Of a stretch of DNA of 21,225 nt, positions 1,212 to 21,225 are shown piece by piece. The position numbers and the translations under genes were made by a program. Position 1 is the stretch's first letter. Each line of letters starts with the position of its first letter. The stretch comes from a virus, in IMG/VR virus record IMGVR_UViG_3300006101_000085, positions 1 to 21,225 of that record; one strand, written 5' to 3'. The notes under the pieces are model-generated. The model made no database searches, was not told where the DNA came from, and saw only the letters and a program-made list of their open reading frames with translations.

Positions 1212-4200
1212 TGGCAAGAGTAGAACTTAATATAGTTGCACTCGGAGATTTTACTTCCGTCAATACGCAAATAAAAGCTCTACAAGCCCAAATTGATCTA
1301 CTTAATAAAAGTGTTGCGGGAGTAGGATTAGGTAATAACCTTACCAAAGATCTTAATTCAGCAGCAGCAGCATTTAAAAATACAATGCTGTCAACTGGAC
1401 AATTTACTCAAGCACAAGTCCAATTAAGAACAGAAACTCAGAAGTTTGGCCAGGCTTTAGAGTCTGGCAAACTATCTTTAGGTACATATTACAGCATAAT
1501 TAAACAAAATTCTGGTTCAGCAATGAACAGTGTAAAAGCACTTGCTGTTGAACAAACTAAACTTCAAAATTCTGTAATAATGGCTGACCCTACAAAGCAG
1601 GGATTTTATTCAGTATTTACACCAACAACAATTAATAAAGTCGCTGATGCAACAAAGATTGCTGCAAACGAACAAAATATTTATAATATTGCTGTTGAAA
1701 AAGGAACGCAAAGTTTAATTAACTGGGGTAAAAATACACAGTGGGCTGGTCGTCAGTTAACAGTTGGTATGTCTGTACCTCTTATGCTTTTTGCAAGTCA
1801 AGCAACATCAGCGTTTAAAGATGTTAATACAGAACTTACAAGACTTCAAAGACTTTATGGTGAAGGTTTAACGCCTCCATCACAAGCAGAACTTAATCAA
1901 ATTTCAGCACAGGTAACAGACCTTGGAAAAAATGTTGCAAGCAGCATGGGTATTGCCGTTAAAGATACTGTGCAAGTTGCAGCTAACTTTGCTGCTATGG
2001 GTCGTCAAGGACAAAATCTTTTAGATACAACATATCAAGCACAACGCCTTTCAAAACTTGGTGCTGTTGACGCAACTGCTGCAACAAACACAATTGTTGC
2101 ACTTCAAAATGTTTATAAGGTAAGCACAAATCAACTTGCAGATGCAGTTAACTTTTTGTCAGATATCCAGAAGCAAACAACAATGACACTTGGCGATATG
2201 ACAGAGGCTATCCCGCGTGTTGGTCCTATCATGCAACAATTGGGTGGAAGTTATAAAGATACCGCCGTTATGCTTGTTGCTATGCGTGAAGCAGGTATTC
2301 CTGCAGCCCAGGCTGCTAACGCAGTTAAATCTGCAATTGCATCTTTGATTGCCCCAACAAAAAGTGCAGTAACTGCAGCACAACAATTTGGTATTAGTTT
2401 AGATGCTGTAAAAAATGCGGGATCTCCAGTACAGATGATTGAAAAGTTACAAGAAGGACTCAAAGGCCTAACCCCATTAGCAAAAGAACAAGTTATTGAA
2501 AAGATCTTTGGTAAGTTCCAATTTGCACGTGTATCCGCACTTCTTGAAAACTTTGGCAAGATTGGGTCACAGACACAAAACGCTCTTAAGATTGCAGGAG
2601 CTTCTTCTGCAGAACTTGCTAACCTTGCTAATCAAGAAATGCAACAAGCAACATCATCTCCTACCGCAAAATATCAAAGAGCAATAGAAACATTTAAAGC
2701 TGACCTTATTCCAGTTGGTCAAAAGATTATAGAAATAACAACTACCCTTATGAACTTTGGTAATACTGTTGCTAAGATTTTTTCAGGTTTGCCAGGCCCA
2801 ATTAAATCAATTCTTGGCATAGCTGCAATTGGAACGGTTTTGGCGGGACCTATAATTATGTTAACTGGTCTTATGGCTAACTTTATTGGTTATATTACCA
2901 AGGCTGTATTTAATCTTAAGCAACTTGCAACTGGTGGAACAACACTAAAACAACTTTTAACACCAGAAATTATTGCATCACAACAAGCAGCAGATCTATT
3001 CAGCAAGGGAATATTAGGCGATGTTGATTCTGTTGACTTATTAAATCAAGCAATTAAGAATTTGACCATAAGTATGGAAGGTCTTGTTTCCACAATGAAT
3101 GCTGGAACAGGAATATCTGCAATTGCATCAGAGATAGCAACAATAGCAGAACCTGGATTAGCTGGAGGTAGAGTTCCATTTATAGCACCAGGAATGGCAA
3201 CAGGTGGCTGGGTACCAGGAAATCCAGCTGCAGGAGATGTCTACCCAGCAATGCTTACTGGACAAGAAGCCGTTATTCCAGCAGCAACAGCAAAGAAATA
3301 TGAACCATTTATTAATGGAATGCTTAAAGGTAATTTGCCAGGTTATGAAAAGGGATATTCTGCAGGACATACATCAATGCCATTTACAGCAGGCAGCACT
3401 CAATATGAAGAGATGATGAGAAGATATCCAAGTTTGGTTGGTTTGCAAGAAACAAATCCAGGATCAGTAAGAGTTCTTTCTAATCTAGTAAACACTTCTA
3501 TGATGCAAAAATTAAATGCACAATTAAGAAGTGGAACAGCTACGCCAGAACAATTTGCAGCTGGTTTTGGTAATACTGGAGGATTAGGATTTGCAAGGTC
3601 TGCTGGACTAGGTGGATTAGCTTCAAATCCAGAAAACATTCAAGCATTAAAAGATTTTGAAGCAGAGCTTAAAAAGAGAGTTCTTGCTTTAAATAAAACA
3701 ACATTGTCAGATGAAGACCTTGCAAAAGAAACAAGAAAACTTATTGATGAGCAAATAAATGCAGCTGGAGCATCCAAAGAAGTTGCAACTGCTTTGCACA
3801 ATGCTTCACAACAGGTAGGTCAGGTAAGAGTAAACCCAGGAGCAGAGTACATACGTTCTGGCATAGCAAGTGGTTCACTAACACAAAAGGGAACTCTTGC
3901 ATATCTAAATGAATCACCAGTTGGACAAATAAGAAATAAAGGCGGAAAGATTACAGATTACGCTATTAATCAACCAGGCGGGTATCAAACATCTACTGCA
4001 AAAAATATTGCTTCTTCAATTGAAGAAAGAATAGCACAAGACATTAATGCTGAATCAAAATCACAATCTCCTTCAAAGGCTACAAGAAAAGCTGCTAAAA
4101 ATATGGTTGACGGTGCTGTTCTTGGTCTTGAAGAAGGAAAAGCAAAAGTTCAAGAAACTTCTGCAACAATTGGTCAATCAGTTACTACAACAATAGAAGA

Positions 4201-6068: not shown

Positions 6069-6590
6069 ATGCAAATACAATCAGGTATACAGGTGTCATT
6101 AGACGGAACAACATGGTATAAGTTAACAGACCACAATCGTGATCCATTTAAAGTTTCATATGAAGTAATTGATAAAACTAGCCGTATGGCAGATGGAACA
6201 ATGCGTCGTTATGTTGTAGCAAGAAAACATAAGATAACATCTTCTTGGAAGCTTACAACATCATGGACACCCGATGCTGTAGATTATAATGTTGCAGACA
6301 CGACAACTGGAAAAGCAGGAGCTTGGATAAAAGCTTTTTATGAAGCAAATGTGTTTAATCCTGTTTATGTAAAGATTATAAATGCAGGAGAAACAGTTCC
6401 ATCATCTGGCTCTTATCCTGATGAATCAACATATTATTCTTCTAAAGATGCTGCTACGGATACAGATAATAAAACTTATCTAACTTACATTACCGCCTTT
6501 GATTACGAGATTGTAAAAAGAGCTGTCGGTGGCATTCAAGCAACTGGGCGGGATCTAGTAAATATTACAATAGAATTTACGGAGGTATAA
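6069..6590 (+). CDS. Distal tail (Dit-like) or minor tail protein
   Basis: A 173-residue protein with ATG at 6069 and a strong AGGAGG site (6058-6063) 5 bases upstream, only one base after the tape-measure stop. It is beta-rich, starting with GIQVSLDGTTWYKL, then a basic segment around MRRYVVARKHKITSSW, an aromatic stretch (WIKAFYEAN) and a C-terminal strand VNITIEFTEV. In siphoviruses the gene after the tape measure commonly encodes the distal tail protein, a ring joining the tube to the tip. The alternating strands could also fit a tail-tube-fold protein, since distal tail and tube proteins share a fold. I rely on position more than on sequence. The stop TAA overlaps the next ATG by one base. 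Confidence 0.6.
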   Translation: MQIQSGIQVSLDGTTWYKLTDHNRDPFKVSYEVIDKTSRMADGTMRRYVVARKHKITSSWKLTTSWTPDAVDYNVADTTTGKAGAWIKAFYEANVFNPVYVKIINAGETVPSSGSYPDESTYYSSKDAATDTDNKTYLTYITAFDYEIVKRAVGGIQATGRDLVNITIEFTEV

Positions 6591-9500
6591 TGAAAGGCTC
6601 CTCCGCAATTAAACAGTACTTCTCATCTGGTACACAACACTATGTAGTTCCCTCAGTTTCAGCAGAATGGAACTATAATTTATTTTATGCCCCATACGCT
6701 ACATTTTCAGGAGACGGAACACCAATATCAAATGGATGGAATACACCATCAAATTGGTCAGCAACAAACTGCGTTATAACTTATGATACAACAGTCGGAA
6801 GAGTTGCAACTGCATATCCAAATACATCAGCTTTAAGATTTGCAACAACTGGTCAAAATGGGTCGGGATCTATAGTGATAGCCCCTACTGGTTCATATAC
6901 TAATAATACCTATAAAGTAACATTCTATGCCAAAGTAGTAGAGAATATACAGGTAAGCCTAACAGCATTAAACTATGTAGATAGCCATAGATCTTCATCA
7001 TCATCTCAAGTTATTGATAGTACAGTATGGACAAAGTTTGAAACCTATATCAGCTCTTTGCCTACAGAAAGCTCATACCCATCATTTACTATGACCCTGG
7101 ACTTTACATCAATTGATACAACAATTGCTATGCAGACTCAAACACCTTTGAGTTCTTATAATGTTCTTATTGATCAGCTTGAAGTTTTTCAGACTACCGA
7201 GCAAGATTATCAATATGGTAATCTTTGGCCAACATCATCTCCGTTTGGATTCTTTAGACCAGGCGAGAGTTATATACCATCAGGAAATTCATTAACTCCG
7301 CTTGCATCAAATTTTAGACAAATTAAAACTGCATTCCAACAATCATCTTTTAATAATCAAGTTATGCCTGCAAGCCCAGTAACATATCACCCTACAGTGC
7401 TGGGTTCTGCAAATTCTAATCCATTATTTAAAAATGGAATACTTTCAGATTACAGTACATATAAATATTTTGTATCAGATGGCGTTACAAACTCTTTAGG
7501 TGCACTTTATGATACTTTGTTGGCAACAAACAAAATTGTTATTAAATTAAATATTAATTATGCAACACCAACCAGCCTAACAGTTAATTTGTATAATACT
7601 GTAACTAACTATACATATACAAAAGCTTTAACAAATTCAGATATATCGTCTGCTGGTGTAATAATACTTTATCATCAAGCTGATGGATCATGGTCAACAT
7701 CACCATGGACAACAATGCCAATATTTAACACATCTGGTCAAATAACAAATTATCAACAAATTAATAAAATTGTTGTTACTCAAAACTCTGCAACAATTAA
7801 TTCTGCATATTCAAGCCCATCTTCAAGCATATCGGGTGATAGCGGAAGATACGCTACATATCAAAAAGATATGACAAGACTTCATGTTATTGAAATTTCT
7901 CCAAGGATAGAGATAGACCTAACTAACTATTTAGTTGATGTAAATACAAAAGAAGAATTAGATAACAAGCAGAACCCATTGCCAATATCTGCGATATCTG
8001 CTAATTCTGCAACAGTTAATTTTTCAAATATTCCGCTTACAGTTAGTGGAAACGTCCTAAGTATATTTTCAAATAACTCAAGTGCATCACCGCTAAATGG
8101 TTTATTTAAAAAGAATGTAAAAATTTACATTAACTATATAGTTAAAGATACTGTGGCGGGAGCTTCAAGTGCGGACAAAGTTATTGCTGGAGGAGTTTAT
8201 TATGCTGAAGAATGGAGCGGTAAGGACCTTAGTCATACACAAGTTATTGCTTATGATATAAGTAAGTATCTTCAGTTATTGTCCCCAACAGATTATGTAT
8301 CTCAATCTCAAGATGTATTTACTGTAATAAGTAACATATTAGATTTTTCAGGTTTTACAGATTATGATTATGATAGTCTAAAAAAGGTAACGACATCTAG
8401 AGTTGTTCTTGTAGATGGAACTATATTAAACAATCCATCTCCAATTAAATCTTCGTATTTCTATTGTGATAGCTTACAACAAAAAGTGTTTGACGTGCTC
8501 AGAGAGCTATTTGAAGTTTATCAAATAGGTGCATATATAAATGCATACGGAGTTATGGAATTCTTGGATCTAGAAAATATATTGGGCAATACAACACCTA
8601 ATTTGCTAGTACATGATAGTTCAACTCCAGTTGCTATTTCTACCCCAGCCTATACTGATAGCTTGACTGTTACAAGTAACATTACAGAAAACACATATAC
8701 TGAAAATGTTAAAACAAAAATTGGTAAAGCAACAATGAAATTTAAGATTCCTCAAATCAATAAAACATTTGACATTGAAGGACTATCAAATACTCAAGCT
8801 TTAGAGACAAAAGTTATTGATAAAAATGATATTTTATGGCAGTTGGAAAAAGAATCTGCAGCAACATTTAATTATTTAAGTCAATCAATTAATAATTATT
8901 CTCAAAATTATTTTTATCTTGATCCAAATGATTTAACAAATACTTTTAGATCTTTCAGCATTGATCAAGAAGGTTATGCAATTATAGAAGGTGAAATTGT
9001 AAGTTTTAAAGATAAAGAATTTAAATTTACTACAACATCACCTACCGATAGCTCCGCTGGACCATCAAATTATATTGCTGATTATAGAGTGGTTGTTTCA
9101 AATGCAGCAGATTTGCAAGCAGCGGTATCAGATTTTTCTGCAAGATCTGGATATGGCGGATCCGTAAGTTATACACCTACAGGAAAAATATGTAATGTAG
9201 AAAGAGGTCTTTTTAACACTCCAGTAAGAACTCATACAATGCTTGATAATTCAAATATTTTTAACCGCACAACAGTTTATTCTGGCAATACGCCAACAAT
9301 TTCAAATAATCAAATTATTATGAGTGCAAATACTCAGGGTATAAAAAGCATATTAGTTCCAAATGATGATGTAAGCCAACAATCAAATCCTTATTATACT
9401 TTTTCAACAAAGATGAGTATTGGTGCTAATTCTGGAACACCATATCAAGTTGGTATGGGGGGAGGCCTAGTATTTGCCCTAGGTAATAATCCAGTTTATG

Positions 9501-10756: not shown

Positions 10757-11590
10757 ATGACTCAGATATCAAGAAGTAATAGACAAGCAACCCCCGTACC
10801 AGGTGGGGTGCAAAAAAGACGTACTCTTGTAATCTCAGATAGGGATCCACGCAATAACCCATCATATATAGCAAATTATATTGGAGAGGTAAAAGTTCTT
10901 CCATATGCAGAGTATTTGCAATATATTAAAACAACTACTTATGCTGAGCCAAGCGATGGGAACCCTACAGACGCTTCCACTGGAGGTACGGTTGTCTCAA
11001 CCCTACATCCGCCAACTAACCTATATTGGGATGCTACAGTAGGTTCTGCTGCCACCGAAATCATACCCTCTGGCACAAGCCACACAATTAATCTTTATGT
11101 AACTTTTGATCCATCAACAGATGATGTTGCTACAGATGGTACAATAACTTATGAGGTAAGAGCTACGGCAACTGGCCCAGCAATTACTTCGGCAACAGTT
11201 GCAAATGGCGGTGGTTCTTCAACAAATAACTCTGGTACAACAATTACCCCTTCAACAACAAGTACATCTGCCCCAGTAGTTCTATCAACAATTTCAACGC
11301 TTGTACATACATCGGGTGAAATTCAAATAAGATGGAAGGGTGTTTCTGGAGTATCTGGTTACGATGTTGTTGTGACTGGTCCAAATCAAGCTAATGCTGC
11401 AGGAAAAGCATCAAAAGCATATGTTACAGGAAAAGATGTTGGAGCAAAAGGAACTGCAAATGCTGGATACCATGTATTTACAATATATCCTCAATCCCCT
11501 GCAGTATTTCATGGCACATATACATTTAGTATTTCAGCAAAATATACAACAACAACTTCAAAGGCGGTATCTTACAATGTTACAGTTTAA
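10757..11590 (+). CDS. Tail structural protein with two Ig/Fn3-like domains
   Basis: A 277-residue protein; ATG at 10757 with AAAGGAG (10746-10752) 4 bases upstream. The first 60 residues are polar and basic (VQKRRTLVISDRDPR, then NYIGEVKVLPYAEYL), probably an attachment segment to the tail. Residues about 85-145 look like an immunoglobulin-like beta domain (SHTINLYVTFDPSTDD, ITYEVRATATG). A Gly/Ser/Thr-rich linker spans about 150-175. Residues about 176-277 form a second Fn3-like domain (IQIRWKGVSGVSGYDVVV, YTFSISAKY). Such domains decorate many phage virions and are thought to give weak binding to host surface carbohydrate. The function is inferred from position among tail genes and domain style. 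Its 3' end overlaps the next gene by 14 bases. Confidence 0.6.
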   Translation: MTQISRSNRQATPVPGGVQKRRTLVISDRDPRNNPSYIANYIGEVKVLPYAEYLQYIKTTTYAEPSDGNPTDASTGGTVVSTLHPPTNLYWDATVGSAATEIIPSGTSHTINLYVTFDPSTDDVATDGTITYEVRATATGPAITSATVANGGGSSTNNSGTTITPSTTSTSAPVVLSTISTLVHTSGEIQIRWKGVSGVSGYDVVVTGPNQANAAGKASKAYVTGKDVGAKGTANAGYHVFTIYPQSPAVFHGTYTFSISAKYTTTTSKAVSYNVTV

Positions 11591-12503
11591 AGGAACTTAT
11601 GTTTTTAAGCAAGATGGGATAGAAATAGGTAGATCAGAAAACCTAATTACTACAAACGGAAGAAAAGTACTTCTTCAATATCTTGCTGGAACAAAAACTG
11701 ATTGGGCAGCAGATATGGCAATAGGAGCAATTAACACTTCCCCCACCACTTCAGATGTTGAATTAAACTTTGAAACAGGAAGATACCCAGTAACACTTAA
11801 AACATACATTTCTGCAACAACGACAAATCCAGATCTAATAGTTGTCAGATCAACTTTGCCAGCAAGCTTGTATGCAAACATATATGAAATTGGCTTGTAT
11901 CCAGAAACAAGAATAACAAATGTAGCAAATAGAAGTAACAAAATTTTAACAGATTTTTATGATTTAACTAACTGGGTTACAAGTATTGCTGATCAAACAC
12001 AAAGCATTACTGGTCAAGGAACGTCATACATAACTGCTTTTTCTCCACAAGGAGCTTCTTCACCAAGAATTGGCGGGTTCTCAGTAGACCTTAATCCAAA
12101 TACCACATACAGCAATAATACATTTGCATTTAGCTTACAGGGATATTCAGACCTAGATAACTTACAACTTTTAGTATATAACACATCTGCAGGAAATCTT
12201 ACAGTTACACTAACAGATTCAGTTGGAAATCCATATACATTTAATTATACATTGACAACAAATTCTAATTATCAAGTAATTAGTGCACCATTCCCAGCAA
12301 ATATTAACTTTGTTAATACATTTAATTCAATATCAATAACTACAGATACAACTGCTGCTTTAACAATTGATGCAATAAAAGCATCTGTAACAAATGAACT
12401 TACAAATGAAGATTACATAATTAGTAAATCAGTGCTTACTACACCTATTGCAAAGATTTACGGAACACCTTTGGATGTTGAATATTATGTTCAGGTATTG
12501 TAG
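11577..12503 (+). CDS. Tail fibre or receptor-contacting structural protein
   Basis: The frame is open from further upstream, but I place the start at ATG 11577 (308 residues): the sequence then begins MLQFKGTYVFKQDG, overlaps the previous gene by 14 bases, and AAGGCGG (11561-11567) lies 9 bases upstream. The N-terminal part has IGRSENLITTNGRKVLLQYL, a motif seen at the start of various phage tail proteins. A beta-rich C-terminal half (about residues 150-275: FAFSLQGYSDLDNLQLLVYN, LTVTLTDSVGNPYTFNY, ISITTDTTAALTIDAIKA) resembles a galactose-binding-like jelly roll. I infer a tail fibre or tip role. No enzymatic motif was recognised. Confidence 0.55.
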   Translation: MLQFKGTYVFKQDGIEIGRSENLITTNGRKVLLQYLAGTKTDWAADMAIGAINTSPTTSDVELNFETGRYPVTLKTYISATTTNPDLIVVRSTLPASLYANIYEIGLYPETRITNVANRSNKILTDFYDLTNWVTSIADQTQSITGQGTSYITAFSPQGASSPRIGGFSVDLNPNTTYSNNTFAFSLQGYSDLDNLQLLVYNTSAGNLTVTLTDSVGNPYTFNYTLTTNSNYQVISAPFPANINFVNTFNSISITTDTTAALTIDAIKASVTNELTNEDYIISKSVLTTPIAKIYGTPLDVEYYVQVL

Positions 12504-12513
12504 GGAGATATAA

Positions 12514-14805
12514 ATGGCCGTAGGCACAATAGCAAATATAAGTATATCTGCTTATAGCACATATGTTAATGTGTCTTTTGCAAAACCAGCAAACACTACA
12601 AAATATGTTGTAACTGTAACTGATGCAGTAAATTCTTATATATCTCCATTTAGTCAAACTTTTTCATTTTCATCATCTGCAGTTGGATCAATAGTTACAT
12701 GCAGGGTAACTGGAATGAATGCGGGGGGAAAATATTATGTTTCTGTAACCCCATATAACGGAACAACTGCTGGAACTACAAAACAATATTCAAATTCAGG
12801 TACACAAAATTTAGTTATTATTCCAAAAACAACTACAACTGCACAAGCTGGAACAACAAGTGGAACAACTTCTGCAACAACTTCCACCACTGGAAATGGT
12901 CCAATTAATCCAACTAGCCCGACTGGATCAACCGCCAACGGTGGAAGTAGCGGAACTTCTTCTGCAGCACCCTCTAATACACCAGTATTTAACCCAGGAT
13001 CTGTAAGCACTTCTCCACCATCAGATATAAATTCGTCAGCTAGAATTAGTCAAAAAGTTGAGGGACTTGACCCAAACACACCATACTCTATTGATATTCG
13101 TGCAGTAACAACTGATGCAAGTGGCAATACTATATATTCAGAATGGTCTCCAAAGCTTAATCTTATTACCCCAGGTTATTCTACAGATGGCAATAACTTT
13201 CAATCTGTTAATAATGCTACAGATATTCAATTATCTGGTGGATCAATTTTTGCGGGAACTTTTGATGTAAGCACTGGAATAATAGATGTAGTAAATGACA
13301 CAGTAAACGGATCTGGCGTTATATTAAATCAAACAGGACTACTTGGCGTAAATGCTGGAACAAAAGAATTTTATCTTGATGCTGCCACAGGTAATGCATA
13401 TTTTGCAGGAACCATAGGTGCAACAGTAATTCAAAGTACAAACTATTCTCCATCAATTGCAACATCAGAACCTCTGTATACTCAAGCGGGAATGAAAATA
13501 GATCTTAATAACGGATCAATATCCTCAAAATCATTTAGGATAACATCAGATGGTACCGCTTATTTTGCTGGATCAATTGCTGCAAATGCAACAATAAATG
13601 GAGTTACGGCATCAACAGTTGTTTCAAATGCAGCTACTGGAATTACTAAGAATGTAACTTTTACACAAGGAACACAACCAACAGCATTAAATATTGGTGA
13701 TTTGTGGTATGACTCAAGTAATGGATTTAAATCTTATAGATGGAATGGGACAACCTGGGTTAGCGTACAAGATGCTTCAATTGCAACAGCACAATCTGCT
13801 GCAAATGCTGCAAATACAAATGCTTTAGCTGCTCAAACTTCTGCTAACGGTAAAAATAGAATTATTTATGGTGCACGTGGATCTGATGCAACTCATGGAC
13901 AAGCACCAGATCTTCAAACATATCAAATAACACAAGGAACAACCAGTACTTCTGTTAACTCATCAACAGGATCAGTTACTACATCAACTACGGGTCAAGT
14001 TAATACTTTTCCATCACAAATTTCTAATACAAGTGGTAATATTGCGGGAGATACTTGGTTTGTGTTAAACAATTACGGTAGTGTAATTGCACAATATACT
14101 GTTAATTCTGCAGCAACATACTGGGTATGGACAACAGTATCAAGTCAAATTATTGGCAATCTTGATGCGGGAATGATAACAACAGGAACGCTTAGTGCTG
14201 TTAATATAAATAATAATACAGGAACTTTTGCTGTTGATACATATGGAAATCTTAAAGCAACATCAGCTTATATAACGGGAACAATTGTTGGATCAAATAT
14301 TTATGGTGGAACTTTGCAAACTACAACAACAGCAAATTCTGGAAATTATATATCTATATCTAATTCAAACAACGCCATATCTTTTTATTCTGGTACAACA
14401 GGATACGCACACATAACACCTTTAACAGGCGGTACAACAACATACGGATTAGTTATTCACCAAGGTTCTACGGCAGACTCAACTGGTGGAACTTACCCTC
14501 AAATGTTTATAGGAAATAATATTTTAAGCTTATCTGCTAATACACCAAGTGCAGTAGCTAATGCTGCATTTTTAACATTTTTTAAAACAAGTGGCAACTT
14601 AAGTATTGGTGGAAACGTTTCATACTCAAGTAAAAATCTTGGCTGGACACAAGGAACAAACTCTGTATCTTATAAATTATTAGGTGCTGATTCGGCAGGT
14701 AATTTTGCTCAAATGGGAATAGGTTTATGGTATAGTGGTAGTTATGGATCTTCAACCCCGCCAAGCAGCATAGGCGATGACGGTGATTATCTATTTAGTT
14801 CATAG
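12514..14805 (+). CDS. Tail fibre protein with Fn3 domains and repeated strand motifs
   Basis: A 763-residue protein; ATG at 12514 with GGGAG just upstream, overlapping the previous stop. Residues about 3-105 and 172-235 look like Fn3 domains (YVVTVTDAVNSYISPF; VEGLDPNTPYSIDIRAV). Between them is a Thr/Ser/Gly-rich linker (about 107-170). Three copies of a short fibre motif follow: FYLDAATGNAYFAGTI near 286, FRITSDGTAYFAGSI near 341 and FAVDTYGNLKATSAYITGTI near 572, typical of intertwined phage fibres. Near 395-420 GDLWYDSSNGFKSYRWNGTTW is a unit I recognise from many phage fibre and host-specificity proteins, followed by an Ala/Asn-rich heptad stretch likely to trimerise. The C-terminal 200 residues are beta-rich and unassigned, and are the likely receptor-binding region. 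Confidence 0.78.
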   Translation: MAVGTIANISISAYSTYVNVSFAKPANTTKYVVTVTDAVNSYISPFSQTFSFSSSAVGSIVTCRVTGMNAGGKYYVSVTPYNGTTAGTTKQYSNSGTQNLVIIPKTTTTAQAGTTSGTTSATTSTTGNGPINPTSPTGSTANGGSSGTSSAAPSNTPVFNPGSVSTSPPSDINSSARISQKVEGLDPNTPYSIDIRAVTTDASGNTIYSEWSPKLNLITPGYSTDGNNFQSVNNATDIQLSGGSIFAGTFDVSTGIIDVVNDTVNGSGVILNQTGLLGVNAGTKEFYLDAATGNAYFAGTIGATVIQSTNYSPSIATSEPLYTQAGMKIDLNNGSISSKSFRITSDGTAYFAGSIAANATINGVTASTVVSNAATGITKNVTFTQGTQPTALNIGDLWYDSSNGFKSYRWNGTTWVSVQDASIATAQSAANAANTNALAAQTSANGKNRIIYGARGSDATHGQAPDLQTYQITQGTTSTSVNSSTGSVTTSTTGQVNTFPSQISNTSGNIAGDTWFVLNNYGSVIAQYTVNSAATYWVWTTVSSQIIGNLDAGMITTGTLSAVNINNNTGTFAVDTYGNLKATSAYITGTIVGSNIYGGTLQTTTTANSGNYISISNSNNAISFYSGTTGYAHITPLTGGTTTYGLVIHQGSTADSTGGTYPQMFIGNNILSLSANTPSAVANAAFLTFFKTSGNLSIGGNVSYSSKNLGWTQGTNSVSYKLLGADSAGNFAQMGIGLWYSGSYGSSTPPSSIGDDGDYLFSS

Positions 14806-14813
14806 GGGATTTA

Positions 14814-16640
14814 ATGCCAAGTATATATCATAGATCTGGCGGGTCTTGGACAAGAATAGCAAAAGTATATCATAAAGCATCTGGTTCATGGACCCAGATT
14901 AGATCAGTATATAAAAAAGTTTCTGGTTCATGGGTAAAAGTATTTTCAGCTGGCTCAACATCTATATCCGTTAGTTCAATAACTCAAACTGGAGCAACTT
15001 TTAACTGGTCATCAACCGTATATAATGGAAGTTATCAAATACTTATATCTCCATCCGTATCTGGATTTCCCATTAATTTTACATCTTCTACTACAAGCAC
15101 TTCAACCACATCTTTATCTGTAAATACATCTTATACGGTTACAGTAAGAGCATATTCTGGAACAGGTCAAACTGGTAGTTATGATACAGCTACAGCTAAT
15201 TTTACAACTTCAAGTTATTATAATGTTACTTACAGTGCAAATGGTGGTTCAAATGCACCAACAGATTCTACTAATTATTCATATGCAGATTTAGTAACAG
15301 TAAAAACAATAGGATCAATGACAAGATCAGGTTATGCTTTTGCTTCATGGAATACAGCAGCAGATGGATCGGGTACTTCATATAATCCAGGAAATCAATT
15401 TTATATATATAACAGTACAACACTTTATGCACAATGGTCAAATGTTATATATACGCCAAATTCTGTAGGATCTCTTACGGGAACATCAAGTTCCTCGTCT
15501 TATGGTGCGAGTTGGACTGCACCAACAGTAGATTCATCTCATAGTGCAGCAACAGGATATTGGTGGACTAGCAATACTACGGGCACAACTCCAACAACAA
15601 ACGGAACTGGAAATCAAATTACCGACCCAGCTTCTACATCAGTAAACGTATCCCCCATATCCCCTGGCACATATTATATATTTGTACAAGCTTATAATAC
15701 TTACAATGGAACAACACAATATAGTGGGTGGTCTGGAACTGGGGCAATAAATGTTGTTGCTGCCCCATATGTTATAAATAATCCTACATTAAGTACTTCT
15801 GCTTGTTATATTAATTATCCAATTACTTGTACAACCTCTACTTCAGATTGGGGCGGAGGCGGAACAATAACATTTGCATATCAGTGGTATTATAAAACAG
15901 GTACAACTGCATATCAAATATCTGGTGCAACATCAGCAACATATTATCCTGCGGGTATTTATGCCGTGCTTAGTAATACAATAAGTTGTCAAGTAACTGC
16001 TACAAATAGTGCTGGATCAACAAGTTTTACATGTCCATATGTACCAGCTAGGTATACTGGAAATGCTGGTTATAATTTATCTTACAACACATACACATTT
16101 ACAGATTCTGTTGCAAACTATGTAGATTTTGCATGGGCTGTCGGATCAACATCTACATCTGCAAGCCCCACATATACTCAAGGATCAACTACAGAATCAG
16201 TAACTTGGTCAGGGGCATTAAGTAGTGGTTATGGAAGTGCCTCAAGCAATCAAGTAACCATCAACACGGCTGGCAGATATCTTTACATATTGCCTATTGT
16301 ACAAGATTCAGTAAGTCATTATTATTATAATGCTCTTAATGGAACTCAAAATGGAGCATATGTATTTGGTCCAACAGTTAATAACCCCCCTCCAACAACA
16401 ACAACTTCTTCAAGTTCTACAACAACTACAACAACTTCTTCAAGCTCTACAACAACAACTTCTTCAAGCTCTACAACAACAACTGCTTCAACAACTTCAA
16501 CAACAAGCTCATATACATGTAATTCATCTGCAACAAAATTGTGTACTTCTGCAGATTTAATTAATGGTTGCTGTTTGTATCCAAATACCCCAGGTGCTGG
16601 AAACTGTGGCGGAGCAGGATCATTTAGCTTTAACTGTTAA
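14814..16640 (+). CDS. Modular tail/adhesin protein: 14-residue repeats, Fn3, InlB B-repeat, Ser/Thr linker, Cys-rich end
   Basis: A 608-residue protein; ATG at 14814 with AGGGGA (14804-14809) 4 bases upstream. It opens with three 14-residue repeats (residues 4-45) around YxKxSGSW. An Fn3-like domain follows (about 48-132). Residues about 136-210 form a clear InlB/Flg_new-type B-repeat (VTYSANGGSNAPTDST, SGYAFASWNTAADGSGTSY, TTLYAQW). More Fn3/Ig-like domains fill about 215-520. A Pro/Thr/Ser linker (about 524-565) leads to a 40-residue end with six Cys, including a CC pair. It is most likely a tail fibre or decorating adhesin. The linker and Cys-rich end are unusual for a phage fibre and look like features of cell-surface proteins. 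Confidence 0.72.
   Translation: MPSIYHRSGGSWTRIAKVYHKASGSWTQIRSVYKKVSGSWVKVFSAGSTSISVSSITQTGATFNWSSTVYNGSYQILISPSVSGFPINFTSSTTSTSTTSLSVNTSYTVTVRAYSGTGQTGSYDTATANFTTSSYYNVTYSANGGSNAPTDSTNYSYADLVTVKTIGSMTRSGYAFASWNTAADGSGTSYNPGNQFYIYNSTTLYAQWSNVIYTPNSVGSLTGTSSSSSYGASWTAPTVDSSHSAATGYWWTSNTTGTTPTTNGTGNQITDPASTSVNVSPISPGTYYIFVQAYNTYNGTTQYSGWSGTGAINVVAAPYVINNPTLSTSACYINYPITCTTSTSDWGGGGTITFAYQWYYKTGTTAYQISGATSATYYPAGIYAVLSNTISCQVTATNSAGSTSFTCPYVPARYTGNAGYNLSYNTYTFTDSVANYVDFAWAVGSTSTSASPTYTQGSTTESVTWSGALSSGYGSASSNQVTINTAGRYLYILPIVQDSVSHYYYNALNGTQNGAYVFGPTVNNPPPTTTTSSSSTTTTTTSSSSTTTTSSSSTTTTASTTSTTSSYTCNSSATKLCTSADLINGCCLYPNTPGAGNCGGAGSFSFNC
16385..16511 (+). repeat. Short tandem DNA repeat encoding the Thr/Ser linker
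   Basis: The DNA consists of imperfect repeats of a unit of about 24-30 bases mixing ACA ACA ACT and TCT TCA AGC TCT codons. It encodes runs of four to six Thr alternating with four Ser. Such repeats can change length by slippage. It is coding and in frame, so length changes in multiples of three would keep the gene intact. Confidence 0.8.
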
Positions 16641-16679: not shown

Positions 16680-17129
16680 ATGCTAACAGATAACGATATA
16701 TATTATTTTCCAAATAAACACCCAGGAGTTCCAACGATAGCTATTGCCATAGGGATAAATGGTAAAATAATTATAGATATGCCTACATATGTTTTTTTCT
16801 ATGACATTTTAAAATCAGCAGATTCTGTTGTTGCAAATAATGAAGATCATAGCAATATTAGTTTTATAAAAAATGAAAATGTTATTGAGACTTTACAAAC
16901 TTCTTCATTTTTAGGCAGTTTATTAGCAAGTAAACCAGATATTTTAGAAATATTTAGACCACCAAATCAAGATCAATATAAAAAAAATTCTCGTGTATCA
17001 AGCGGTTGGCTATATGATTCAGAAGGAAATTTTAATTTGCCTTACGAAGGTTGGGATACAGAAATGGTTGACGGCAAATATAATGCAGATAATGAATTTA
17101 GATATTTAAATTTTTATACAGGAGATTAA
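16680..17129 (+). CDS. Unrecognised protein, first gene of the glycosylation cassette
   Basis: A 149-residue protein I do not recognise. The start at ATG 16680 lies at the predicted transcription start, so translation is probably leaderless; there is no ribosome site to support another start. The sequence has a hydrophobic, beta-rich N-terminal half (VPTIAIAIGINGKIIIDMP, then YVFFYDILKSADSVVAN) and a C-terminal part rich in Trp, Tyr, Gly and Asp (GWLYDSEGNFNLPYEGWD). No signal peptide, transmembrane helix or catalytic motif is evident. It is followed one base later by the Cys-rich gene with a good ribosome site, so the genes share an operon. A role in the sugar-modification pathway is suggested only by position. 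Confidence 0.6.
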   Translation: MLTDNDIYYFPNKHPGVPTIAIAIGINGKIIIDMPTYVFFYDILKSADSVVANNEDHSNISFIKNENVIETLQTSSFLGSLLASKPDILEIFRPPNQDQYKKNSRVSSGWLYDSEGNFNLPYEGWDTEMVDGKYNADNEFRYLNFYTGD

Positions 17130-17130
17130 T

Positions 17131-17409
17131 ATGTCAAAAGAAAAAACACCATTTGAAAAATGGCATGAAGAAAATGAAGAAAAAATTAAAGAAGAAAGAT
17201 CTAAAATTGTAAAAAGGGTAGCAAGACCACTTGATATTTTAAACCCATCAACACAATATTTAGATAATGAAGAGTCAAATGCAAGATATGAAATTTGTAA
17301 ATCTTGTCCAGAATTAATTAATTTAACAAAACAGTGTAAAAAATGTGGTTGTTTTATGGCGGTAAAAACAAAAATTGCTCACGCTTCGTGCCCATTGGGT
17401 AAATGGTAA
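17131..17409 (+). CDS. Small Cys-rich (zinc-ribbon-like) protein
   Basis: A 92-residue protein; ATG at 17131 with AGGAG (17120-17124). The first 30 residues are highly charged and probably helical (FEKWHEENEEKIKEERSK). The C-terminal half carries C56xxC59, C69xxC72xC74 and C87, ending CPLGKW, a pattern suited to binding one or two zinc ions. I recognise this arrangement (CKSC...CKKCGCFM...CP..KW) from small phage proteins, often in marine and freshwater phages near structural or sugar genes. Their function is not established to my knowledge. It could be a nucleic-acid or protein adaptor. No catalytic residues are visible. Confidence 0.72.
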   Translation: MSKEKTPFEKWHEENEEKIKEERSKIVKRVARPLDILNPSTQYLDNEESNARYEICKSCPELINLTKQCKKCGCFMAVKTKIAHASCPLGKW

Positions 17410-17412
17410 TTT

Positions 17413-18348
17413 ATGTCTAAATTAATTTTGTCGCATTGGCACGGCAAATTTGGTAACAGAATGCATGAGTATGCTTTTGCCAGCACATATGCAAAAAAAT
17501 ATGAATATTCAATTGAAGCTTTTTCACATTGGGAAGGAATACTTCTATTTAAAAATCCACAATATAAATTATTAGAAGAAAAAGAATTGTGTGAGTATTT
17601 AAGAAACAGCGACCTTAGTCTTGAAGAAAGAAATGCAAAAGTTTTAGAGTATTATCCAGAAGCAAATTATTTTGATCCACATCAGCATGAAAACGCATAC
17701 GCACAACCAGTATGTCAAATTATATTTGATAGCTTAAGTGCTTATAATGACGATATATTTTTAGGTATGGATTCTAAATTTATTAAAAGTTTATTTGAAT
17801 TTTCTGATTTAGTAAAAGAAACTGATTCTTATAAATATTGGGAATCAATAAAAGGAACTTATGATGTTGCACATTTAAGAAGAGATGATATAGCAAATGT
17901 AGAGTTTAACTTAACTCACATACAAGGCTATTCAGTTATATCAAAAGAATCTTATTTTAAAGCTTTTGAAAAATTTGGTTTTGATAAAGATAAAATTCAA
18001 TGGGTATCTGATGATTTTATTAATAAATGGCATACAGATAGGCCAAAAACAAAGCAAATGGGTTGGAGTTTTCCAGAAGGCTCCATTTATTGCCCAGGCA
18101 TAATATTTGATTGGCTTGATGATTTTTTAAAAATTTATTTTGCAAGAACTGTTTTTAGAGCAAATAGCAGTTTTAGTTGGTGGGCTTGTTATTTGTCACC
18201 TACAGCAAAAGTTTATTCACCAATAGTTGATAAACAATTAATATATGGTAGAAATGGTTTAACACAAGAGATTGATGTTGAATTTTCAGAAGGAAATGAA
18301 AACCATTGGATGCATTTTGATCCACCAAGAAAAATAATAATAACATGA
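17413..18348 (+). CDS. GT11-family-like glycosyltransferase (alpha-1,2-fucosyltransferase-like)
   Basis: A 311-residue protein; ATG at 17413, three bases after the previous stop, with no good ribosome site, so it may rely on translational coupling. The motifs match the GT11 fucosyltransferase family: an N-terminal GKFGNRMHEYAFA (residues 11-23, compare the usual GGLGNQMFQYA), HLRRDD at 154-159 (the GDP-sugar-binding HxRRxD signature), WVSDDF at 197-202 and ANSSFSWWACYLSP at 250-263. Family members transfer L-fucose from GDP-L-fucose. Here the next gene makes GDP-L-galactose, which differs from GDP-L-fucose only by a 6-hydroxyl, so L-galactose may be the donor sugar. No membrane segment is seen, implying a cytoplasmic enzyme. 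The four-base ATGA overlap with the epimerase gene ties the two functionally. The exact acceptor is unknown. Confidence 0.82.
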   Translation: MSKLILSHWHGKFGNRMHEYAFASTYAKKYEYSIEAFSHWEGILLFKNPQYKLLEEKELCEYLRNSDLSLEERNAKVLEYYPEANYFDPHQHENAYAQPVCQIIFDSLSAYNDDIFLGMDSKFIKSLFEFSDLVKETDSYKYWESIKGTYDVAHLRRDDIANVEFNLTHIQGYSVISKESYFKAFEKFGFDKDKIQWVSDDFINKWHTDRPKTKQMGWSFPEGSIYCPGIIFDWLDDFLKIYFARTVFRANSSFSWWACYLSPTAKVYSPIVDKQLIYGRNGLTQEIDVEFSEGNENHWMHFDPPRKIIIT

Positions 18349-19295
18349 AAAACATACTTGTACTTGGAGCGGGCGGATTTATAGGTAGCCATCTTGTTAA
18401 AAGATTAAAAGAAGAAGATTGTTATGTTGTTGGAGTAGATCTTAAAAAACCAGAATTCTGGGAAACTTATGCTGATAAATTTATCATAGCTGATTTAAGA
18501 GATTATCAATCTGTAATAAAATTGTTTAACATAAAATATGATGAAATATATCAACTTGCTGCAGATATGGGAGGTGCTGGATATATTAATACTGGTTTTA
18601 ATGATGCTGAAGTAATGGGTAATTCAATATTAATAAATGTAAATGTTTTAAAAGCTGCACACGTTTTTAGATGTAACAAAATACTATATTCTTCAACTGC
18701 TTGCGTTTATCCAGAATATAACCAAATGGATCCTTTTGGAGTAAATTGCAGGGAAGATTCAGTTTATCCCGCTCAACCAGATACAGAGTACGGCTGGGAA
18801 AAATTATTTAGTGAAAGGCTATATTTGGCATATAATAAAAATTATGGAATGAATAATAAAATAGCTAGATATCATAATGTTTTTGGTCCTTATGGAACTT
18901 GGGATGGCGGAAAAGAAAAAGCACCTGCTGCGATAGTTAGAAAAGTTGCTAAAGCTACAGATTCAATAGAAATTTGGGGGGATGGAGAGCAGACTCGTTC
19001 ATTCTTGTATATAGACGAATGTGTAGAAGGAACAATTAAGTTAATGCGATCTAAAGATTTTGATGGTCCAGTTAATATAGGTTCAGAAAGAATGATATCT
19101 ATAAATAATTTAGTAAACATTGTTTCAGGTATTGCTAATAAAAAACTTGTTAAAAAACACATACCTGGGCCAATAGGTGTAAAAGCAAGAGTTTCTGATA
19201 ACCAATTAATACAAGAAAAGTTGGGCTGGAAACCAGAAGAAAATCTAGAATACGGACTAACTCAACTATACAATTGGGTGTCTAGTCTGATATAA
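18345..19295 (+). CDS. GDP-mannose 3,5-epimerase
   Basis: A 316-residue extended short-chain dehydrogenase/epimerase. ATG at 18345 overlaps the previous stop (ATGA). It has the NAD-binding G8xxG11xxG14 motif and acidic D32. The motifs are those of GDP-mannose 3,5-epimerase rather than generic epimerases: LAADMGGAGYI (71-81), STACVYPE (117-124), YGWEK (149-153), HNVFGPYGTWDGGKEKAPAA (177-196), WGDGEQTRSFLYIDECVEG and HIPGPIGVKARVSDN. As I recall the Arabidopsis numbering, its catalytic C145, Y174, K178 and K217 correspond here to C120, Y149, K153 and K192, all at the same offset of 25, so the active site looks intact. The enzyme converts GDP-mannose to GDP-L-galactose (and GDP-L-gulose). GDP-mannose would come from the host, since no gene for it is in the window. 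Confidence 0.9.
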   Translation: MKNILVLGAGGFIGSHLVKRLKEEDCYVVGVDLKKPEFWETYADKFIIADLRDYQSVIKLFNIKYDEIYQLAADMGGAGYINTGFNDAEVMGNSILINVNVLKAAHVFRCNKILYSSTACVYPEYNQMDPFGVNCREDSVYPAQPDTEYGWEKLFSERLYLAYNKNYGMNNKIARYHNVFGPYGTWDGGKEKAPAAIVRKVAKATDSIEIWGDGEQTRSFLYIDECVEGTIKLMRSKDFDGPVNIGSERMISINNLVNIVSGIANKKLVKKHIPGPIGVKARVSDNQLIQEKLGWKPEENLEYGLTQLYNWVSSLI

Positions 19296-19312: not shown

Positions 19313-19537
19313 ATGTCATATGAATTAACAAACGAAGAAAAGATCAATGTTATTGAAAGCAGAATTAAAAACATTTATAGAAATGAGTATAGTCTACAAA
19401 TTTCAAAAATTGAAGAACAATCAAAAACAAGTCCAGATCAATCAATTATTAATAATTTAAATTCACAAATTGCTGATATAGCAAAGCAAACATCTGCACT
19501 AGAAGCAGAAATAACAAAGTTAACAACATCTAACTAA
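19313..19537 (+). CDS. Small coiled-coil protein
   Basis: A 74-residue charged protein with a strong GAGGAGG site (19301-19307) 5 bases before ATG 19313. It appears helical and coiled coil almost throughout: hydrophobic residues recur every three to four positions (INVIESRIKNI, INNLNSQIADIA, SALEAEITKL). There is no signal peptide, membrane segment or enzyme motif, so a spanin or holin role is not supported. The next small gene has a related pattern (RIxxI...QI), which suggests that the two are distant duplicates. A structural or chaperone role next to the fibre genes is possible but unproven. Confidence 0.65.
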   Translation: MSYELTNEEKINVIESRIKNIYRNEYSLQISKIEEQSKTSPDQSIINNLNSQIADIAKQTSALEAEITKLTTSN

Positions 19538-19552
19538 TAGAACAGGAATAAA

Positions 19553-19723
19553 ATGGAAAAAGCGGAACTAGTAATTACCGCCCTACAACAACGTATTGGC
19601 GAAATTGTTTCAAATTATGAAACACAGATTGCAATTCTTAGAGCAGAGATTACACAGCTCATGGATAAGGATAAGGCAAAGGATGAATATTCTCAAAGCC
19701 TTTCAGAAACAATCTCCCAATAA
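19553..19723 (+). CDS. Small coiled-coil protein, possible paralogue of the preceding one
   Basis: A 56-residue reading frame from ATG 19553 to TAA 19721-19723. An AGGA site (19543-19546) lies 6 bases upstream. The protein is helical and coiled coil in style (LVITALQQRIGEIVSNYETQ, then IAILRAEITQLMDKDKAK). It resembles the preceding 74-residue protein in the spacing RI..I...N.Y..QI and in the AEIT motif. It overlaps the next gene by 41 bases. The function is unknown. Confidence 0.6.
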   Translation: MEKAELVITALQQRIGEIVSNYETQIAILRAEITQLMDKDKAKDEYSQSLSETISQ

Positions 19724-20081
19724 AGTATATAACCCTATAGTCCCTAGTGGATTAGTTGCTCATACTGAGAAGGGTTATTTTTATATCAAGGGTAATAAAA
19801 AGTTTAAGTTTGTATCTGAGAGGGCCATGCTTTCATGGTCCCTCCCAATTATTAATACAACAGAAAATAAACTAAGTAAACTTATTACCGCTGGTACTTT
19901 GGGATTTCGTGATGGAACTTTGATAAAAGACATCTCTGATGGTAAAATGTATCTAGTAAGTGATTCAAAACGTCGTCATATAATTGACCCTAACGTACTA
20001 GAATGGCTTAATACAAATGTTATTGGGGCGGGACAAAAAGAAGTCCTAATACATGAAGAAGGAGAACCACTAGATGAGTAA
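19683..20081 (+). CDS. Two-repeat protein of the KRR/surface-associated type
   Basis: The frame is open from 19596, but ATG 19683 is preferred: AAGG (19673-19676) lies 6 bases upstream, and the 132-residue product begins just before the conserved part. It would overlap the upstream gene by 41 bases. The protein holds two diverged copies of one repeat: GLVAHTEKGYFYIKGNKKFK (from residue 23) and GTLIKDISDGKMYLVSDSKR (from residue 78), each followed by a helix ending around SWSL or EWLN. The second copy closely resembles the DGxLxKxxxxxxYLVxxGKRRxI repeat common in actinobacterial exported proteins and some of their phages. Its molecular function is not known to me. The location suggests a virion or host-surface role. 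The start codon of the next gene lies inside its last codons. Confidence 0.68.
   Translation: MNILKAFQKQSPNKVYNPIVPSGLVAHTEKGYFYIKGNKKFKFVSERAMLSWSLPIINTTENKLSKLITAGTLGFRDGTLIKDISDGKMYLVSDSKRRHIIDPNVLEWLNTNVIGAGQKEVLIHEEGEPLDE
19820..19844 (+). other. Strong stem-loop inside the KRR-repeat gene
   Basis: Left arm GAGGGCCATG (19820-19829) pairs with right arm CATGGTCCCTC (19834-19844), leaving one bulged T and a four-base loop CTTT. Ten base pairs, six of them G-C, stand out in this AT-rich sequence. It lies within the coding region and is not followed by a T run, so a classical terminator is unlikely. Confidence 0.6.
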
Positions 20082-20487
20082 TAAGATAATCCAATCAGAT
20101 AATGCTGTTATTGACTATACAACAATTTCAGTCATGATTGATACCTTAAATAATCAGCAAAAAGCTATTGAAGATCTTCAAGCTACCGTTAACCATACAT
20201 CGGCAGCCACCGATCCAGTTTCAGGTCAAACAGTAACAACCTCTGGCCCTATGGTTATGAAAGGCGGGTATGTAAAGATAACTGCAAATGGAAATGTTAA
20301 TATTACCTATAGCGGATTTACATCAAAGCCAACAAGTGTTATTGGAGTTGTTCAGTCAACATCAAATCCAAAAACTGCTGGATGTTATATTAATAAAACA
20401 ATTACTCAAACAGGTGCTTCATTTACAGTATATGGCCTAACAAGCTTTACTGGAGCAAATTTATATTGGATGGCATTAGGTAACTAA
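20074..20487 (+). CDS. Small fibre-tip-like protein
   Basis: A 137-residue protein; ATG 20074 with AAGGAG (20059-20064) 9 bases upstream, overlapping the previous stop by eight bases. Residues 1-40 are polar and helical (TTISVMIDTLNNQQKAIEDL), probably a trimerising or docking helix. The rest is beta-rich and ends LTSFTGANLYWMALGN. The pattern of a final aromatic-W-x-A-(I/L)-G resembles the C-terminal domain of gp53-like tail fibre tips and H-type-lectin-like modules. I infer a small receptor-contacting or fibre-tip protein. The sequence alone does not prove this. The stop TAA overlaps the following ATG by one base. Confidence 0.55.
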   Translation: MSNKIIQSDNAVIDYTTISVMIDTLNNQQKAIEDLQATVNHTSAATDPVSGQTVTTSGPMVMKGGYVKITANGNVNITYSGFTSKPTSVIGVVQSTSNPKTAGCYINKTITQTGASFTVYGLTSFTGANLYWMALGN

Positions 20488-20747
20488 TGTACGATCCTAT
20501 CAAGTTTTGGACAAAACGAGATAGTAAAATCAGCAAAGAAGGATATGTTCTAATAAAAGTACCAGAACATCCTAAAAATTTTAAAGGCTGGTACTATGAG
20601 CATCGTCTCATGATTGAAAAAGAATTGAATAGAATGATTGAAGATTGGGAAACCATCCATCATATTAATGAAGATAAGACTGATAATAGATTAATTAATC
20701 TATTTCTTTGCTCAAGATTAGAGCATAACAAAGCACACGCTGCTTGA
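20487..20747 (+). CDS. HNH endonuclease
   Basis: An 86-residue protein; ATG 20487 overlaps the preceding TAA by one base. It matches small phage HNH nucleases: EGYVLIKVPEHP, then YYEHRLMIEKEL (E38-H39-R40), IHHINEDKTDN (H58-H59, N67), N71 and EHNKAH (H80, H84). The metal- and DNA-cleavage residues expected for the ββα-metal fold are present, so it should be active. Free-standing HNH genes often behave as homing elements that insert between phage genes, and its place between the fibre genes and the next module fits. Its stop codon lies inside the -35 box of the following promoter. Confidence 0.88.
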   Translation: MYDPIKFWTKRDSKISKEGYVLIKVPEHPKNFKGWYYEHRLMIEKELNRMIEDWETIHHINEDKTDNRLINLFLCSRLEHNKAHAA

Positions 20748-20773
20748 CAAAAAACAATACACTACGCTACAAT
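20744..20773 (+). promoter_or_regulatory. Promoter for the metallophosphoesterase gene
   Basis: TTGACA (20744-20749) and TACAAT (20768-20773) are 18 bases apart, exactly as at 16644-16673. Transcription should start near 20780, giving a short leader that carries AAAAAGGA (20787-20794). The -35 overlaps the HNH stop codon. Confidence 0.75.
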
Positions 20774-20798
20774 TGACTAAACCTAGAAAAAGGATTAT

Positions 20799-21225
20799 AT
20801 GACTAATGACTTAAAGTGGATGATGGTATCGGATATTCATTTCCCCCGCCATGATCCAAGAAAAGTAGAACTCTTCATGAAGGTATTGAAGTGGTTCAAG
20901 CCAGATGCAGTTGACCTGCTTGGCGATATTGATGATGCAGATTCAACTTCACGTTGGGCTGCTGAGTATCCTGCAGAGTTTAGCATACCAGTATCAGATG
21001 GTGGTGTAACAGGAACAAGAGATTTTTTGGCAGACCTACGTCGTGTGGCGGGACCAGAAGCAGAAATACATTTTCATGATGGTAATCATGGCTGGACAAG
21101 ACATGGTGATTACCTAGCAAAAAAAGCTCCAGCATTTTTAGAATTCATTACGCCTGATTCACTCTATGAGTATAAAAAGCATGGCATTAACTGGCACGAA
21201 TATAACGAGCCACCTGTTAAACGCT
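20799..21225 (+). CDS. Metallophosphoesterase (calcineurin-like), 5' part; runs off the window
   Basis: ATG 20799 has AAGGA 4 bases upstream and opens a frame with no stop to the window end (142 residues visible). It contains the signature motifs of calcineurin-like phosphoesterases in order: SDIHFP (D12, H14), LLGDIDD (G42-D43) and DGNHGW (G95-N96-H97). These bind the two active-site metal ions. The remaining C-terminal motifs (the last His-containing ones) lie beyond the window. Such proteins are frequent in phage genomes and may act as nucleases or phosphatases on DNA, RNA or nucleotides; the substrate cannot be told. It has its own promoter and probably begins the next, non-structural module. 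Confidence 0.85.
   Translation, partial: MTNDLKWMMVSDIHFPRHDPRKVELFMKVLKWFKPDAVDLLGDIDDADSTSRWAAEYPAEFSIPVSDGGVTGTRDFLADLRRVAGPEAEIHFHDGNHGWTRHGDYLAKKAPAFLEFITPDSLYEYKKHGINWHEYNEPPVKR

Follow-up and report, generated by a model that had tools for sequence, protein, structure and literature searches.

What purpose does an almost uninterrupted run of serine and threonine serve in a phage fibre whose gene is followed by genes for sugar metabolism? This question is raised by a viral DNA stretch of 21,225 nucleotides (IMG/VR record IMGVR_UViG_3300006101_000085, positions 1 to 21,225; hereafter the window), in which the terminal fibre gene is followed, in this order, by an open reading frame (ORF) for a protein of 149 amino acids (aa), a small protein that we call p17, a glycosyltransferase (GT) and an epimerase (Table 1). 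We consider it fairly likely that the Ser/Thr tract of the fibre is the O-glycan acceptor of a dedicated, phage-encoded fibre-glycosylation module, which here would add L-galactose. Translation of positions 16386-16511 gives PPP followed by TTTTSSSSTTTTTTSSSSTTTTSSSSTTTTASTTSTTSS, in which 38 of the 39 residues are Ser or Thr, the dense content expected of a mucin-type O-glycoprotein. When the best run of a protein is scored with +1 per Ser or Thr and -2 per other residue, the window fibre reaches 36, whereas shuffling this protein, which is 36% Ser/Thr, 20,000 times yielded scores that averaged 6.2 and peaked at 15, none of them matching the observed tract. This bears out the almost pure Thr/Ser linker that the initial annotation had placed at 16385-16511. 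The same annotation had the cassette start 169 bases after the tract; the ORF found there (16680) encodes the 149-aa protein, and the first sugar gene begins at 17413, approximately 900 bases from the tract.

As no fibre homologues were found in 50,697 phage records (tblastn) or in viral contigs (pattern search), loci were sampled by conserved neighbours in three scans of viral loci, with p17 (at least 80 loci), the window GT (52 loci) and GT60 (at least 80 loci); selection in the p17 and GT scans is independent of the tract. The 166 p17 genes fell into 127 clusters (90% DNA over 250 bases), 97 of which had 1.5 kb on either side and form the set for the comparisons below. A locus, denoted by an L number, was classed as having a GT when a GT60 or a GT11-like enzyme lay within 3 kb of p17. 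Three loci with a GT were nevertheless counted as GT-less: in L059 and L055 the glycosyltransferase precedes the p17 copy that was used, and in L090 the contig ends within the GT. L032, where a GT60 abuts p17 and the Ser/Thr run is 7 (22 with Pro), was excluded for its short flank.

A Ser/Thr tract (score of at least 9) was present in the upstream fibre of 29/54 loci with a GT, compared with 2/43 without (p 1.4e-7). The comparison with cassette-less relatives had been set beforehand as one that could refute the proposal of the initial annotation, namely that the tract is a glycan acceptor of the adjacent cassette; linkers are not equally common in loci without a GT, and the core of that idea survives. 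Sorted by arrangement, tracts accompany 16/19 GT60 genes abutting p17 (the remaining three loci have runs of 6-7 Thr), 5/5 abutting GT11-like genes and 7/21 GT60 genes further away. Pooled, 21/24 loci in which a GT abuts p17 carry a tract, against 10/73 of all other loci (p 6e-11), and phylogenetically independent pairs on the p17 tree were 8:0 for an abutting GT (13 pairs, 5 ties) and 7:0 for a GT within 3 kb (20 pairs, 13 ties). At the 46 GT60-scan loci that have p17, tracts occurred in 27/217 upstream ORFs versus 0/228 downstream. Among the residue classes with at least three positive loci, those holding Thr (T, ST, TP and TA) were associated with the GT and GS, AP and GA were not; a Gly/Asn class was rare (3/24 abutting loci versus 0/73 others, p 0.014). 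Eight tract-bearing contigs without the window GT all had a GT60 (PF11397, E 3e-31 to 4e-43; 8/8 scanned) soon after p17, directly in six of them and 1.0-1.5 kb on in L103 and L112.

Proline accounts for most of the loci left over by the pure Ser/Thr test. Ser/Thr/Pro tracts (score of at least 12) were found at 51/54 GT loci versus 7/43 GT-less ones (p 4e-16), and the Thr/Pro class (score of at least 9) gave 51/54 versus 6/43 (p 5e-17). For Ser/Thr/Pro, clusters holding a p17-scan locus gave 22/22 versus 4/32, removal of the GT60-scan-only clusters left 31/32 versus 7/41 (p 1e-12), and the 20 independent pairs on the p17 tree comprised 16 concordant, 0 discordant and 4 tied (p 3e-5). When the three ambiguous loci (L059, L055 and L090) were left out and residue class, penalty and threshold were varied, all 12 settings remained significant (p 6e-7 to 5e-16). 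Proline content in turn follows a neighbouring 2-oxoglutarate (2OG)-Fe(II) oxygenase gene, assigned to PF13640 in those scanned, of which the L047 member matches bacterial prolyl 4-hydroxylase (E 4e-7). Where both a GT and a 2OG gene were present, 16/16 loci had a Ser/Thr/Pro tract, all Pro-rich; with a GT and no 2OG gene, 35/38 had a tract, Pro-poor in 27 of these; with a 2OG gene and no GT, 6/21 had one, all Pro-rich; and with neither gene, 1/22. Among GT loci, Pro-rich tracts amount to 16/16 with and 9/38 without a 2OG gene (p 1e-7). The 2OG gene was seen between p17 and the GT where the fibre has long Thr-Pro repeats (L047, L051, L052, L068, L116, L120, L103 and others).

The window encodes two sugar enzymes. 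As the first, the GT, had no sequence match among PDB structures, we compared its fold instead, using an AlphaFold model built from a 29-sequence alignment (pLDDT 85.6, pTM 0.88). The first 43 rows of a structure search against the PDB were all fucosyltransferases, including plant FUT1 (Z 13.3 over 260 residues, 4.1 A), FUT8 (11.6), POFUT1 (11.0), POFUT2 (10.9) and NodZ (10.8), while the first non-fucosyltransferase entry had Z 8.0; the Foldseek match had E 1.5e-6, and identity to the fold matches was only 10-15%. Residues H154, R156, R157 and D159 are invariant in the 29 sequences and make up the HxRRxD motif of the fucosyltransferase superfamily. The modelled fold identifies the window GT as a fucosyltransferase-superfamily enzyme of the GT11/O-FucT type. 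Pfam GT11 proper (PF01531) gave no match in the window enzyme, and the relatives in L063 (E 1e-3) and L059 (E 8e-3) stayed below the cut-off. The second enzyme matches Arabidopsis GME (2c59) over its full length, with the best non-GME entry at E 1.5e-25. The alignment keeps the Cys in SSTACVYPE and the Lys residues in YGWEKL and GGKEKAPAA, the latter two of which we take to be catalytic. Passages of PMC6678494 give C145 as the catalytic residue of GDP-mannose 3,5-epimerase. By sequence similarity and these kept residues, the window enzyme is assigned as a GDP-mannose 3,5-epimerase, and an epimerase-profile match is also present in 41/50 loci with the window-type GT. L-galactose is 6-hydroxy-L-fucose, so the epimerase product and a fucosyltransferase-type enzyme fit each other, and the sugar of the window module is probably L-galactose.

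The tract, the gene order, the enzyme families, the association and the match between tract composition and enzyme are direct observations, and on these we base the following model. In the infected host the epimerase would convert GDP-mannose to GDP-L-galactose (possibly also GDP-L-gulose), and the fucosyltransferase-type enzyme would transfer L-galactose to the Ser/Thr hydroxyls of the tract, attaching it directly rather than elongating a primer made by the host; p17 may serve as an accessory factor. The dense sugar coat would stiffen the linker into an extended, protease-resistant rod that keeps the Cys-rich tip at a distance from the shaft. Related modules would place GT60 beside poly-Thr, or GT60 or a fucosyltransferase-type enzyme together with a prolyl-hydroxylase-like enzyme beside Thr-Pro repeats. 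We lean, if narrowly, towards the broader proposal that uncultured tailed phages carry an exchangeable, eukaryote-like fibre O-glycosylation module, made up of the tract, p17, a GT60 or a fucosyltransferase-type enzyme with GDP-L-galactose supply, and a prolyl-hydroxylase-like enzyme where the tract is Thr-Pro; tract composition would track the enzyme, and the fibres would be viral mucins or hydroxyproline-rich glycoproteins. If so, a glycosyltransferase and, upstream of p17, a tract of Thr/Ser or Thr-Pro type should each predict the other, bacterial viruses would use mucin-like and hydroxyproline-like O-glycosylation, the modules would offer small candidate enzymes for glycosylating simple repeat peptides in bacteria, and the virion may be the target of some phage-borne glycosyltransferases annotated as cell-wall genes.

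Loci that share the tail backbone of the window allow a narrower comparison. A relative of the minor tail protein is encoded in 37 viral loci, and those reaching far enough keep the same order up to the fibre and resume it at the genes around 19313-20799, with a variable block between. Nineteen loci, the window included, hold the whole variable block. A GT is present in the window (tract score 36) and in L012 and L015 (9 each, with GT60), the latter two appearing to be the same block in two contigs; the other 16 have no GT by the profiles used, and the last fibre has a Ser/Thr score of at most 8. The minor tail protein is approximately 21% identical to those of Streptomyces and Rhodococcus phages (best-covered records), and this distant relationship makes an actinobacterial host likely.

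Several points weigh against the acceptor interpretation. Glycosylation of the tract is something we infer from genes and their arrangement. The window enzyme is not a GT60: PF11397 was found in 0/10 window proteins scanned, and the gt60 profile gave no match in the window ORFs. Its fold fits glycan-modifying (FUT1, FUT8, NodZ) and protein-modifying (POFUT) fucosyltransferases about equally. With Ser/Thr alone, the association is weak in the p17-scan clusters (7/21 versus 1/32, p 0.004) and amounts to 14/32 versus 2/41 (p 1e-4) once the GT60-scan-only clusters are removed, and a pure Ser/Thr tract occurs in 1/9 loci whose GT11-like gene lies 0.6-2.2 kb from p17, all nine of which have Pro-rich tracts. 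At the laxest penalty, the Ser/Thr/Pro threshold is also passed by 20-23/40 GT-less loci. Both the gt60 profile and the query of the GT60 scan derive from tract-positive loci, and the query may favour such loci; the profile nonetheless recovers members at approximately 30% identity. Clustering at 90% DNA and pairs on the tree of a protein as short as p17 remove shared ancestry only in part. Among the backbone relatives, L012 and L015 pass by one point (9 compared with 8 in the GT-less L011), and with Pro allowed the GT-less L011 and L037 score 20 and 25; in both, the adjoining gene is 2OG-type or unnamed. At the 34 GT60-scan loci without p17, 1/141 upstream ORFs had a tract; as tracts are nearly missing there, the rule concerns a fibre-linked module and not GT60 as such.

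The seven GT-less loci that do carry a tract (L011, L037, L134, L152, L090, L096 and L097) belong to the same side of the account. A 2OG gene comes next in L090, L037, L134 and L152, in L096 with a GT61 further on, and in L097, where the genes further on include an epimerase and one that matches a nucleotide-sugar transferase below the threshold. In L011, p17 adjoins a member of a family that has no match in Pfam (LPPAEH...FGRHQW...; L011:19706-20245); this family is also next to p17 in L144 (6191-6781) and L098 (3135-3725), which have shorter Thr-Pro runs, and may be a further hydroxylase family. We scanned with Pfam the 113 plus-strand ORFs of 170-700 aa within 3 kb downstream of p17 at 40 GT-less loci. 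Among the 25 of 26 families listed, 32 matches were to PF13640 and none to GT60, which indicates that the no-GT class is mostly real; the three GT61 and one O-FucT matches count against the interpretation.

Could the sugar genes act elsewhere, with the tract a mere spacer? They might modify the host surface, as in receptor change or superinfection exclusion, or another part of the virion, and be clustered with the fibre through their common bearing on adsorption. NodZ acts on a glycan, as do FUT1 and FUT8, and all three are among the best fold matches along with the POFUTs. Such a role leaves unexplained why Thr/Ser(/Pro) runs, rather than Gly/Ser or Ala/Pro runs, track the enzyme and why Pro content tracks the prolyl-hydroxylase-like gene. 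Moreover, 37 phage records encode the epimerase at E 1e-50, and the four cyanophage epimerase regions examined have no tract ORF within 10-15 kb. Tracts thus do not simply accompany any sugar gene, and we regard this explanation as unlikely, if still worth keeping in mind. The tract might also be an unglycosylated flexible spacer joining the Cys-rich tip to the shaft, with fibre, p17 and GT co-inherited as one exchanged block. At least four Cys lie in the last 60 residues of 23/29 fibres with a tract and a GT versus 32/68 other upstream ORFs, and the p17-GT-epimerase block was found on different backbones, as this account would have it. Against it stand the independent contrasts (16:0, 4 ties), the lack of any association for Gly/Ser runs, the usual inert linker, and the recurrence of the tract although the fibre modules differ among many tract-bearing loci, and we consider it improbable.

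A very improbable explanation, in our judgement, is that replication slippage at a coding repeat produced the tract as a by-product with no selected function. The tract DNA is a clear tandem repeat with the 24-base unit ACAACAACAACTTCTTCAAGCTCT, and in the window the Thr codons are ACA and ACT only, with both TCN and AGY codons used for Ser. Ser/Thr runs can also change length quickly: the tape measure protein (1211-6067) has one around residue 1403 that spans 8 residues in the window, compared with 14 in L010 and L016, two loci with 98% identical tape measures. Slippage would not be expected to produce enrichment beside GTs, however, and all four Thr codons occur across the tracts of the relatives (ACT 218, ACA 173, ACC 94, ACG 32).

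The proposed acceptor module resembles known systems in some parts and departs from them in others. Freeman et al. are said to have reported virion glycosylation in mycobacteriophages in 2023. Passages of PMC10877033 and PMC12619734 describe mycobacteriophage glycosyltransferases that act on the C termini of virion proteins, namely capsid and tail tube. The genes of the window suggest a comparable action on virion proteins; here, in contrast, the putative target is the long Ser/Thr tract of a terminal fibre, and the module has its own nucleotide-sugar enzyme together with GT60 or fucosyltransferase-superfamily enzymes. According to passages of PMC9472816, GT60 includes Trypanosoma cruzi TcOGNT1, which makes GlcNAc-alpha-Thr on mucin-like molecules, and passages of PMC8724618 and PMC6939170 place Skp1 Gnt1 in the same family. 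Related phage loci likewise have PF11397 enzymes beside Thr-rich proteins, and some a prolyl-hydroxylase-like gene and a GT beside Thr-Pro repeats. Gnt1 acts on hydroxyproline. The phage genes, in contrast to the protist systems, would operate with no Golgi and have activities predicted from sequence, and the window enzyme is fucosyltransferase-type rather than GT60. With POFUT1/2 and the alpha-1,2/1,6-fucosyltransferases (families GT65, GT68, GT11, GT23 and GT37), the window GT has the fold and the HxRRxD motif in common; it differs in its low identity and in being paired with a GDP-L-galactose-type rather than a GDP-L-fucose-making enzyme. The epimerase resembles plant and bacterial GDP-mannose 3,5-epimerases, but is phage-borne and lies directly 3' of the glycosyltransferase, beside a fibre gene; GME also occurs in cyanophages.

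Searches of deposited phages, bacteria and the literature gave the following. The window GT had no match in the 50,697 phage records. GT60 was found in three, all jumbo phages, and the one region examined (XacN1, 6 kb flanks) had no tract ORF; p17 was found in 32, and no tract ORF lay within 6 kb of it in the five examined (S-IOM18, X1, QB2, YB07 and Sf-FP1). Eight bacterial loci with the window-type GT had no p17 or tract fibre among the ORFs listed. In the open-licence PMC literature, judged by title and start of abstract, no paper was found that combines phage fibres, Thr-rich tracts and glycosylation, nor one that describes GT60, fucosyltransferase-type or prolyl-hydroxylase-like genes matching a mucin-like or Thr-Pro tract in a fibre. 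A large sugar cluster in Synechococcus phage S-SCSM1 (L263, 95305-126270) holds a GDP-mannose 3,5-epimerase, an O-FucT, several 2OG oxygenases and fucosyltransferases, and the stretch of it examined had no tract ORF.

Table 1. Features of the window considered here (window coordinates)
Feature	Position	Strand	Basis
Terminal fibre protein, 608 aa	14814..16640	+	ORF and translation
Ser/Thr tract, residues 528-566, with PPP ahead (16386-16394); proposed O-glycan acceptor	16395..16511	+	Translation, shuffles, association tests
24-base coding tandem repeat encoding the tract	16395..16506	+	TRF score 128, 4.4 copies, 83% matches
C-terminal Cys-rich module, 42 residues, 6 Cys	16512..16637	+	Sequence
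149-aa protein between fibre and cassette	16680..17129	+	ORF
p17, 92 aa, 6 Cys, DUF6171-like, phrog_13558; marker gene for sampling loci	17131..17409	+	
Glycosyltransferase, fucosyltransferase superfamily (GT11/O-FucT-like), HLRRDD motif; proposed tract modifier	17413..18348	+	phrog_2644 E 2e-5, fold
GDP-mannose 3,5-epimerase; proposed GDP-L-galactose maker	18345..19295	+	PDB 2c59 E 2.9e-93 over residues 4-314
Weak Ser/Thr-rich linker in a 763-aa fibre, not linked to the cassette	12832..13025	+	

The window fibre begins with short N-terminal SGSW-type repeats, followed by an fn3-like region (PF00041, E 1.7e-4, below the fn3 cut-off), a List_Bact_rpt (Flg_new) domain (PF09479, E 3e-12), the tract and the Cys-rich C terminus, which is likely to form a disulfide-bonded tip. 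Cys-rich modules after Thr linkers also end many other tract-bearing fibres (L002, L004, L012, L125 and L170), with the loosely common pattern C.S.DV.N...C; the Cys tip was set aside as a GT-linked feature, since many tract-less fibres end in it too. The tract-bearing fibres of approximately 840-1000 aa in L112 (2442-5435), L187 and L188 have a C-terminal domain in common, which we take to resemble a Hint/intein-type domain and which could process the fibre. In L112, a Radical SAM/SPASM protein (6185-7189) lies between p17 and GT60 and may provide a further peptide modification of the fibre; a protein in L103 (6795-7766) looks similar.

The 149-aa protein matched nothing in Pfam or PHROG under the limits applied, and distant relatives of it were found by tblastn in L003, L007, L009, L059, L129 and L168 (25-35% identity). 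The Ser/Thr linkers that the initial annotation had noted in two other fibre proteins, near 11205-11280 and 12832-13025, are present; they are weak and stronger in some cassette-less relatives, and so lend no support to a link with the cassette. The best run in the 12514 protein, the 763-aa fibre, scores 7 in the window, compared with 9 and 11 in the same protein of the GT-less L011 and L023, and the counterpart of the 10757 protein in the GT-less L019 scores 9. Finally, the ORFs at 10757-11590 and 11394-12503 overlap by approximately 200 bases in different frames, and the second tail protein, in which the phrog_9983 match begins at residue 84, probably starts further downstream.

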